Virus record (IMG/VR): IMGVR_UViG_3300046002_004973
Location: 1-42,563 of that record
Strand: one strand, 5' to 3'
Length of the DNA stretch: 42,563 nt
Origin: a virus
Both the position numbers and the translations under genes were made by a program. This document shows positions 5,057 through 6,664 of the stretch, piece after piece. A model generated the notes under the pieces. That model was given only the letters and a program-made list of their open reading frames with translations, made no database searches and had not been told where the DNA came from. Each line of letters starts with the position of its first letter. Within the stretch, counting starts at the first letter, position 1.

Positions 5057-5747
5057 CTTTAAAAGTTAATTTGGTTGATGTATCTTTATTTTCAAATTTG
5101 TTAAATTCAGGTTTTGGTTTAAAAATACCTGCCCAATTATTTGCCATACTTTGTTCAATAATGTTTTCAGCATTTTCAAATTTGTTTTCTGAATATTTGG
5201 TAAGGATTTTTACAAAGGCATTTAAGCTAGCCTGAGATTTATAATTTTCCTTTCTGGAATTTTTATACTCAATCCATTTTTGAACTAAGGGAATAAATAT
5301 ACCAAATTCAGAAAAATCAAAACCCTGTATTGTTTTAGGTTTATTGTTTAAGGTTGTATGTTTATCTATACTACTATTGCTTTCCCCTATGCCTAAGGTT
5401 TGCTTTCCCCTATGCCCAAGTATTGCTTTCTCTAATGCTTTCCCCTTTTTTGGTATAGCACTTTTAAGAGTTATAATATTTGCAGTATATTGATTTTTTG
5501 ATTTTTGAACCATTCCAATAAAGCCCCAAGCAACTAAATCATTAAAATATCTTATAAAAGTTTCATGCTTTTTTATACCTAATGCATCCATTGCCATTTG
5601 ACTTGGAAGGCCAAATTTATCCTTCCATCCAAGCCGATTGCATTGGTCAATTACATAAAAATAAATTGCAGTATGGTTTGGATTAACTAGTTCAGGGTTT
5701 TCAAAGGACCAATCAAACCAGTTACGGCTTAACTCATATCCATTCAT
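5037..5747 (-). CDS. Replisome organiser / helicase loader-like protein
   Basis: The 236-residue product has an N-terminal region resembling a winged helix (about residues 1-85: DWSFENPELVNPNHTAIYFY, then a helix-turn-helix-like PSQMAMDALGIKKHETFIRYFNDL). After a polar linker comes a C-terminal block (about 150-205) with KWIEYKNSRKENYKSQASL and IIEQSMANNWAGIF. Phage DnaD-like replisome organisers share this plan and the closing helix with NNWxGIF. Such proteins bind the origin and recruit the helicase. The gene lies directly upstream of dnaB and overlaps it, which supports the role. Exact family unverified. Confidence 0.65.
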   Translation of the reverse strand: MNGYELSRNWFDWSFENPELVNPNHTAIYFYVIDQCNRLGWKDKFGLPSQMAMDALGIKKHETFIRYFNDLVAWGFIGMVQKSKNQYTANIITLKSAIPKKGKALEKAILGHRGKQTLGIGESNSSIDKHTTLNNKPKTIQGFDFSEFGIFIPLVQKWIEYKNSRKENYKSQASLNAFVKILTKYSENKFENAENIIEQSMANNWAGIFKPKPEFNKFENKDTSTKLTFKGGKSNN

Positions 5748-5946
5748 TGGAAACCTTTATAAAAAACTCCTGAATTATTAAAATAGTATTTTTATCAACA
5801 AAAAATTCTAAATCTTGTACTATTTCAGAATCATCGATTTTTGTCTTTTGAATTACTATAGATCCAAATGGATCTCCTTCTGTTTTTTCATAAACAATTT
5901 GAACCCTAGTATCGGGTATAAAAAGTGTCTTTTTATTCTCAATCAT
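5734..5946 (-). CDS. Hypothetical protein, first gene after the RNA element
   Basis: The 70-residue product is beta-rich and acidic (MIENKKTLFIPDTRVQIVYE at the start). I recognise no family. Its ATG comes immediately after the hairpin and U-run of the structured RNA element at 5947-6076, so its translation and the replication genes downstream are the natural targets of any control by that element. It overlaps the replisome organiser gene by 14 bases. Confidence 0.6.
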   Translation of the reverse strand: MIENKKTLFIPDTRVQIVYEKTEGDPFGSIVIQKTKIDDSEIVQDLEFFVDKNTILIIQEFFIKVSNEWI

Positions 5947-6040
5947 AAAAAATAAAAAACCTCACCCGACTTTCATTGGTGGAACCCGCAAGGATAAGCG
6001 GCCAATTACTGATCGAGTGAGGTCTGTTAAATTTCTTCAT
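5939..6040 (-). CDS. Possible 33-residue upstream ORF across the RNA element
   Basis: The frame begins ATGAAGAAATTTAAC after an AAAGGAA stretch, one of the few Shine-Dalgarno-like sites here. It ends in a TGA lying within the first codons of the next gene (5946). The peptide begins MKKFNRPHSISNWPLILAG. It may be a leader peptide whose translation would disrupt the hairpin, or chance. The base-pairing constraints explain the sequence better than coding does. Confidence 0.25.
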   Translation of the reverse strand: MKKFNRPHSISNWPLILAGSTNESRVRFFIFYD

Positions 6041-6076
6041 TTCCTTTTTTCCGAGTTCCAATCGGGCCTTTCGGCA
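5947..6076 (-). ncRNA. Structured RNA element with predicted pseudoknot and U-run
   Basis: Read on the minus strand. A small hairpin GCC-GAAA-GGC is followed by CCGA-(UUGGAAC)-UCGG. Then comes a long hairpin whose outer stem is 11 bp including G-U pairs (6012-6022 with 5960-5970). Above it is AUUGG/CCAAU (6002-6006 with 5975-5979), stacked on CCGC/GCGG (5998-6001 with 5986-5989). A 6-nt bulge GUUCCA (5980-5985) is perfectly complementary to UGGAAC in the loop of the second hairpin, a likely kissing pseudoknot. The terminal loop UUAUCCUU can also pair with AAGGA upstream. A U-run (5947-5959) follows the stem, directly before the ATG at 5946. It has its own -7 box (6080-6087). It could be a regulatory leader, attenuator or sRNA; I cannot name a family. 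A 33-codon frame (5939-6040) also crosses it. Confidence 0.6.
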
Positions 6077-6079
6077 ATG

Positions 6080-6087
6080 CAAATATA
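6080..6087 (-). promoter_or_regulatory. -7 promoter box for the RNA element and replication operon
   Basis: TATATTTG on the minus strand is an exact match to the Bacteroidetes -7 consensus TAnnTTTG. No clean TTG is present 19-21 nt upstream. Predicted start of RNA is near 6075, just before the first hairpin. Confidence 0.5.
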
Positions 6088-6088
6088 A

Positions 6089-6664
6089 CTAAAAATACAT
6101 TGCAGAAAGCCACAATGCAAAAAACATTAAACCGGATAATCCTAAAACCATATTCCAAAACTTCAGCTTATCAATAATTTTAAAAGCTATTTTATTTTGC
6201 TTTTGCTCAGATTCAATTATTGAATGCAACTGGCTAAACTGCTTGTCCTTAGATTCAATGGTTTGATTAATTTCTTTTTTATAATCAACAAATTTTTCCA
6301 GAAAAGAAACTGATTCGTTTTCAAGTTCATCAATCCGTTGATTATTGATCCTTTGAGCCACATCTCGCAGGTTCTCAGATTTTGCCAATTGAGTTTCCAG
6401 TTCTTCTTTGCGGATTTTTAAACGTCTTGAATATTCTTTGGAACTTTTTAAATCCCTTTCAAGAGTTTCAACTTTGGCAATGTATCGCAACACATTTGCA
6501 GACAAATAGAAAGCATCTCTAATAGGTCCATCAACTGTTAAATGGTAATTAATAGCCCACCTTTCCAAACCATCTTCATCAACAATTTTATGGGATAAAA
6601 TTAAACGACCCGCACCAACTCCAATTCGGAGACCTTGTATTAATTCAATTGGTTGCTTTTTCAT
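6089..6664 (-). CDS. Coiled-coil protein with C-terminal membrane anchor
   Basis: The 191-residue product has an N-terminal beta-rich part (about 1-60, with VGAGRLILSHKIVDEDG), a long charged coiled coil (about 65-165, many E/K/Q heptads), and one hydrophobic segment near the end (MVLGLSGLMFFALWLSAMYF, about 172-191). It probably sits on the inner membrane facing the cytoplasm. Its ATG overlaps the stop of the preceding 52-residue gene (ATGA, 6661-6664). I do not recognise a family. Its place in the early region could suit membrane attachment of replication or exclusion of other phages, but both are speculation. Confidence 0.65.
   Translation of the reverse strand: MKKQPIELIQGLRIGVGAGRLILSHKIVDEDGLERWAINYHLTVDGPIRDAFYLSANVLRYIAKVETLERDLKSSKEYSRRLKIRKEELETQLAKSENLRDVAQRINNQRIDELENESVSFLEKFVDYKKEINQTIESKDKQFSQLHSIIESEQKQNKIAFKIIDKLKFWNMVLGLSGLMFFALWLSAMYF

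Follow-up and report, generated by a model that had tools for sequence, protein, structure and literature searches.

Several described systems resemble the RNA element reported here, each in part. The attenuator of pT181 repC, reportedly described by Novick in 1989, belongs to an initiator gene, in whose leader a terminator hairpin immediately precedes the initiator start, and the element, so far as its sequence alone can tell, is built alike; unlike that attenuator, it has no conserved antisense -7 box and no antiterminator kept throughout, contains two pseudoknots, and belongs to phages of Bacteroidetes. In the pseudoknotted leader of IncI-alpha repZ, said to have been studied by Asano and Mizobuchi in 1998, the loop of one hairpin in the initiator leader pairs with another hairpin further on, near the start, and a leader open reading frame (ORF) is present. 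The element shares the former feature on the evidence of covariation, and has a tentative counterpart of the latter in one of its classes only; it differs from the repZ leader in that the partner of its first pseudoknot (PK1) lies inside a terminator-like hairpin, and in that neither an antisense RNA nor, in its other two classes, a leader ORF was seen. In phage lambda, the O gene has the origin inside it, and p'R gives rise to the attenuated 6S leader; the present locus is comparable in having an O-like initiator gene with iteron-like repeats and a promoter followed at once by a leader with a terminator signature, and is unlike lambda in that no antiterminator is known and the fold is pseudoknotted. 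Plasmid RNA II is the model for an RNA belonging to an origin, as primer or as activating transcript. The immunity RNAs P4 CI and P1 c4 are short phage RNAs that act by pairing, and the element, which would likewise be a short phage RNA that pairs near replication or antirepressor genes, differs from them in having no Rfam match and in pairing within one RNA. The P1 c4 antisense RNA is Rfam family RF01695 (listed in PMC2864571), and that model gave no match at its gathering score in the locus or in 12 relatives.

The element was found in a virus record of 42,563 bases, analysed whole and referred to as the window, where it directly precedes a set of replication genes (Table 1). An initial annotation had placed there a -7 box, small hairpins, a long hairpin (H2), two complementarities and a U-run before the ATG at 5946, all of which are present at those positions; its inner AUUGG/CCAAU and CCGC/GCGG stems of H2 were also correct, whereas the outer stem, given as 11 base pairs, has 12. 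RNAfold, proposed by the same annotation as a check, put this nested structure at -42 kcal/mol; shuffled sequences averaged -31.05, giving a z of -2.92, and 2 of 200 of them did as well.

Table 1. Positions of the parts of the element and of neighbouring genes in the window, and of the element in three cultured phages
Feature	Position	Strand	Remarks
-7 promoter box, TATATTTG	6080..6087	minus	Bacteroidetes -7 type; fits TANNTTTG / TAHHTTTG of Flavobacterium
H0, GCC-GAAA-GGC hairpin, GCCGAAAGGC	6066..6075	minus	near predicted 5' end
H1, CCGA/TCGG hairpin	6051..6065	minus	loop TTGGAAC
PK1 5' strand	6060-6055	minus	TGGAAC in H1 loop
PK2 5' strand	6042..6046	minus	AAGGA in linker
Class A leader ORF, 33 codons (tentative)	5939..6040	minus	through H2, overlaps ATG 5946
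H2, long hairpin	5959..6023	minus	outer stem 12 bp; AGUA/GAA internal loop
H2 inner stems	within 5959..6023	minus	ATTGG/CCAAT and CCGC/GCGG
H2 apical loop, UUAUCCUU	5997-5990	minus	
PK2 3' strand	5994-5990	minus	UCCUU in H2 apical loop
PK1 3' strand	5985-5980	minus	GUUCCA bulge of H2
U-run (terminator signature)	5947..5959	minus	right after H2; ends at ATG 5946
First operon gene, 70 aa	5734..5946	minus	no family found
Replication initiator (O-like), 236 aa	5037..5747	minus	
DnaB replicative helicase, 444 aa	3722..5056	minus	Pfam DnaB_C E 1.1e-84, DnaB E 1.8e-15
Four 18-nt iteron-like repeats	5375..5450	minus (letters on + strand)	in initiator gene; spacing 23, 23, 12
Element, Flavobacterium phage 11b	L194:3397		PK1 CGGGCAGG, 8 pairs; between gp61 and gp62
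Element, Polaribacter phage Danklef_1	L192:2518		PK1 GGTGGAA, 7 pairs; before gp42
Element, Flavobacterium phage elemoF_6-3D	L195:2182		GTGGAGG, 7; before gene preceding replication initiator

Relatives were chosen from viral contigs by the pattern of promoter box and H0 alone (TANNTTTGCANNGCCGAAAGG), without use of the pseudoknots; the pattern occurs in 54 stretches, and the loci collapse to 38 distinct sequences, the window included. (Three further loci, L030, L032 and L034, which have the exact DNA pattern across PK1, were unrelated and were dropped.) In all 38, box and H0 are followed by H1, a linker, and then a long hairpin with a U-run. We grouped these sequences ourselves into three classes: class A, to which the window belongs, in which the PK1 partner of the H1 loop is the 3' bulge of H2; class B, in which it is the H2 apical loop; and class C, which has the same partner as class B and an extra hairpin in the linker. 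Inside H2, AGTA and then GAA, which we take to be a loop-E motif, are found in 28 of the 38, none of them of class C.

The PK1 pairing was examined by picking H1 loops regardless of pairing and comparing each with the inside of its own H2. Between 5 and 8 Watson-Crick pairs were obtained in every one of the 38 sequences, and at least 6 in 36 of them (L018 and L078 have the shortest helix, of 5 pairs), whereas comparison with the H2 of members having another pairing core reached only 2-4 pairs in 1033 of 1208 cases and 5-8 in 175. In class B (n=19), 97.4% of the PK1 helix is paired and 4 of its 8 pairs have changed on both sides; pairing over the full structure is 98.2%, falling to 37-47% on sliding; in class C (n=6) the corresponding figures are 100% for PK1 (changes on both sides at 3 of 7 pairs) and 94.5% for the whole, one of the drawn pairs forming in none of the six. 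The class A model alignment (n=16) has the H1 loop out of register, so that the count there had to exclude PK1 and covered nested pairs only: 25 of 28 changed on both sides, 97.5% of cells were paired, and none of 500 shuffles scored as high, with the reservation that an alignment fitted to the structure favours that structure. H0 also covaries, its GCC/GGC stem being replaced by GGC/GCC (GGC-GAAA-GCC) in L187 and L218.

In class A the second pseudoknot (PK2) joins the 3'-terminal 5 nt of the apical loop of H2 to the 5 linker nt right before a conserved ATGAA-like anchor, the two pseudoknots being nested in each other. A search by longest complementary run was discarded as uninformative, the linkers and loops being AT-rich and 39% of shuffled linkers reaching 5 pairs. 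An anchored test, for which anchors and offsets were set by hand after the sequences had been viewed and mismatched pairs were given equal freedom, placed 13 of the 14 members entered in register (4.5-5 of 5 pairs), as against 2 of 172 mismatched combinations, and 20,000 random reassignments reached at most 8 of 14. The exception, L038, misses the register and has a shifted 7-nt match. Three of 17 members were left out: L035, whose loop is identical to the window's, and L176 and L147, which have no clear match, their best pairings, of 5 and 4 pairs, lying outside the register. Comparison across relatives has thus borne out both pairings that had been proposed from the window alone, namely bulge GUUCCA with UGGAAC of the H1 loop (PK1) and the H2 apical loop with AAGGA of the linker (PK2). 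The accompanying argument that so many agreeing pairings exceed chance has also held, since pairings and stems are maintained by compensatory change; a lack of covariation, named in advance as a refutation, was looked for, and covariation proved strong. With replication genes downstream, these results support the proposal of a pseudoknotted regulatory leader, attenuator or small RNA before them.

Covariance models were built from class B (R1) and from five class A sequences (R2). R1 finds 35 of the 38 sequences, members of classes A and C among them (it misses L018, L035 and L078), and scores the window at 38.6 bits (E 1.7e-5); R2, which was given 16 class A loci (not L018 or L078), recovers every one of them, with E 5.7e-7 for the weakest, together with 6 weak matches (E 0.002-0.09) on the opposite strand of five of those loci and of L035. 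The initial annotation could name no known family, and the Rfam search that it recommended agrees: none of the 4227 families of Rfam 15 matches the window at its gathering threshold, and in 12 relatives its only match was a tRNA in L042, with none at the element. The best weak match, PyrG_leader (25.9 bits where 65 are needed, E 0.26), was rejected, permissive matches being at chance level. The element matches no Rfam 15 family and is located before replication operons with differing initiator genes.

A same-strand ORF ends at most 31 nt from the box in 37 of the 38 loci; the element lies on the operon's strand in all 38 and close before an ATG in the 35 for which one was assigned (three have none), at most 7 nt from the segment end in 27 of these, although the distances for L047 and L071 use a misplaced stem end. 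No clear -33 box was recognized upstream of the window's -7 box; TTTG begins exactly 25 nt before the box in 14 of the 38 sequences. After the H2 stem, 6-7 of the first 8 nt are T in every sequence, and the criterion for a predicted intrinsic terminator (a G+C-rich stem with a U-run at once) is met by H2 in all 38; a terminator scan limited to loops of 3-8 nt did not call it. The consensus to which the box was compared, TANNTTTG / TAHHTTTG, is that given for Flavobacterium in PMC6847099.

To reach the initiator gene, any transcript, whether from this promoter or from the upstream genes, must cross H2 and the U-run, so that a terminated leader is the simplest reading. We hold it to be probable, if only modestly so and without transcript data, that the element is a structured, transcription-attenuating leader RNA of a phage replication operon. 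Comparison of sequences, and nothing beyond it, supports the position of the element, its fold including the two pseudoknots, and its signatures of a promoter and a terminator, and from these transcription, termination, read-through, regulation and RNA stability are inferred. As between a leader, an attenuator and a free small RNA, the choice that best suits the position, in the absence of RNA data, is an attenuating leader from which a short RNA is released as well. It is distinctly improbable, in our judgement, that H2 does not terminate and acts instead as a stabiliser of the 5' untranslated region or a translation standby site, the U-rich stretch serving initiation and the fold protecting the 5' end of the mRNA. 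The closeness of the ATG to H2 would suit such a role, as would the absence of Shine-Dalgarno sites in Flavobacteria and the tuning of their initiation by mRNA structure and upstream bases, as described in PMC6847099; yet the favoured upstream bases given there are A at -3 and -6, not U, and in the seven loci whose ATG lies 14-29 nt further on the U-run remains on the stem. An attenuating leader is compatible with some of this, in that H2, near the ATG of genes translated in the manner just described, may act on translation too.

Under the attenuating-leader reading, the promoter would start an RNA of about 125 nt, in which H0 and H1 would fold first; as H2 emerged, the H1 loop would pair with the bulge or loop of that hairpin (PK1) and, in class A, the linker with its apical loop (PK2), thereby docking the 5' part of the transcript on the terminator hairpin. 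Most transcripts would then stop at the U-run to give a short, stable RNA, and a regulated fraction would read on to transcribe the initiator and helicase genes, the first start codon of which is a few nt downstream. The leader would in this way limit the supply of initiator, and perhaps also transcription over the iteron-like repeats in the initiator gene, which a transcript from its promoter would cross. Several points speak against attenuation: the pseudoknots alone leave the outer stem of H2 unaltered, and no termination switch was identified; no alternative antiterminator fold is kept throughout the classes; the short-loop terminator scan fails on H2; PK1 falls to 5 pairs in L018 and L078; and half of the upstream regions scanned in one initiator family (29 of 58, see below) have no element with at least 6 PK1 pairs. 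A conserved antisense -7 box was not found, an opposite-strand box lying within 200 nt in 6 of 37 loci where about 3 would be expected (background 0.09 boxes per 200 nt; the search covered -7 type promoters only). In class B and in 6 of 13 class A sequences, but not in the window, the 5' arm of H2 has a complement in one half of H0, GCCGAA or AAAGG, and this pairing may form an antiterminator in L042, L057, L060, L064, L081, L084 and the class B loci.

A special case of attenuation, which we consider quite unlikely, would have the leader sense translation: a ribosome on the class A leader ORF would unwind H2, with read-through and coupled initiation, and otherwise PK2 would cover the region before the ORF start and H2 would terminate. 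The ORF frame (frame 0) is open through H2 in all 11 class A members with an MK start, in which 21 of the 22 other frames contain stops, and it is closed in three members without the ATG, L038, L183 and L018; however, L147 has an ATG near the ORF start and a stop at codon 4, the frame is open in L042 and L078 despite the lack of an ATG, and no leader ORF was seen by eye in classes B and C. The test is further weakened by the kinship of the members and by the fold's conserved bases, which are free of stops in that frame.

The distribution of the element was surveyed through the initiator proteins and with the models. For the window's initiator family the best 80 of 315 related viral loci were taken, of which 58 non-redundant upstream regions were scanned for box, H1, H2 with U-run, and complementarity, duplicates and upstream stretches shorter than 300 nt being left out. 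At least 6 PK1 pairs were found in 29 of the 58 and at least 7 in 21, as compared, for the lower threshold, with none among 55 downstream regions, one among 58 when the reverse strand was scanned, and 0.3 per set of dinucleotide shuffles, and with 0.05 per shuffled set for the higher. The set includes close relatives of the window; many of the matches are wholly different in sequence, with the pairing kept. Single matches near a score of 13.5-14 mark the chance level: coding regions of the window hold two, and genome loci totalling 115,634 bases hold another. In a second initiator family (best 80 of 274 loci taken, 64 used) the element is present in 7 of 64 non-redundant upstream regions, against 0 of 79 downstream controls. 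Six of these seven carriers were already in the set and L218 was new; L208 was scored through a pairing other than that of the PK1 test. The element does not go with the second initiator family as such.

Cultured phages carry it as well. In 13 records, mostly stretches around replication genes (11 cultured Bacteroidetes phages and 2 faecal clones), a convincing element was recognized in three of the 11 phages, 11b, Danklef_1 and elemoF_6-3D, and was not seen in the other eight; BLASTN of the RNA against cultured phages gave nothing convincing, and the three carriers were found via their initiator proteins. A weak scan match in phage lotta8-1 (score 14.0) was not counted. Phage Danklef is reported, in PMC8776804, to have an integrase gene. 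Of host origin there was no sign: R1 matched none of 395 Bacteroidota genomes (under stricter filters, in a set without a positive control) and none of 3 genomes in the run that matched all 8 virus records included in it, and after 15 matches of the box and H0 pattern in genome contigs the RNA was absent in 14, the other, L093, being cut off after 68 nt. The element is shared by a set of viruses of Flavobacterium-type bacteria.

In each of those 8 virus records, which are possibly fragments, R1 matched one place only (in that of L078 only at E 0.3). This bears on whether the element is a free phage small RNA acting mainly in trans on a host or phage protein or RNA, its site before the operon being one of convenience, which we regard as unlikely. 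It is a complete unit from promoter to terminator and folds compactly, in a form that persists although the flanking genes and the type of initiator vary, and the RNA of L035 is 96.8% identical to the window's over 157 nt with a different gene directly downstream; against a free RNA stand the lack of a second place in any of the 8 records and the position of all 38 sequences on the operon strand, close before the ATG wherever one was assigned.

Returning to the attenuating leader, we offer a more specific form of it as a possibility that remains doubtful: two nested pseudoknots would lock the 5' part of the transcript on its terminator as an exchangeable valve before differing initiators, metering the operon and releasing a stable early RNA, and one class would be read by ribosomes via the leader ORF, such that the translation capacity of the host sets replication. 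An RNA device of nested pseudoknots on a terminator was not described in the sources searched, and no structured RNA controlling replication of Bacteroidetes phages was found in the literature searched, an earlier mention, for example in the genome paper of phage 11b, not being excluded. The element matters for its heavy covariation, its lack of an Rfam 15 family, its recurrence before different initiators and its presence in cultured phages, which makes its role directly testable; it would offer a way into the timing of replication by these phages.

Two observations concern the sequence just upstream. In the window, a hairpin of 10 pairs followed by TTTTT (minus strand, 6119-6096) lies where the upstream gene ends, immediately ahead of the promoter. 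Among the loci (for example at L056:4266-4310) a kept stretch precedes the -7 box, containing TGTGAAATAA in 15 of the 38 sequences and TAATTTTG in 12; the latter fits a -7 box too, and a second start or an operator may therefore lie there.

The genes downstream are those of replication, with initiators of differing kinds. DnaB lies downstream in 24 of the 38 loci, and in 20 of the 28 that have at least 2.5 kb of downstream sequence. The window's initiator (236 aa) has no Pfam match; it matches PHROG 678, 'replication initiation O-like' (E 2.2e-7), and best the unnamed family phrog_18589 (E 2e-12). Of seven initiator-type proteins, six match PHROGs for replication initiation, helicase loading or primosomal proteins, the match of L049 being weak; L046 matches an unnamed family only, and for L049, L058 and the window an unnamed family is the best match. 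The window's iteron-like repeats, present in 4 copies where none of 60 shuffles has more than 3, mark a candidate origin inside its initiator gene, and similar arrays occur in the initiator genes of L012, L035 and L037. That the element is the RNA of the origin itself, as primer or as the transcript of a transcription-activated origin by analogy with plasmid RNA II, would accord with these repeats and with the replication operon, but appears very improbable: the repeats are in the initiator gene and not in the RNA, they occur only as pairs in L045 and L064 and not at all in the initiator genes of L018, L049 and L074, and the RNA is kept before different initiators. As regards the exchange of such genes, L035:4884-5040 and window 5940-6100 are nearly identical in the RNA and have differing genes directly downstream, and the leader may be a crossover point for the swapping of replication modules.
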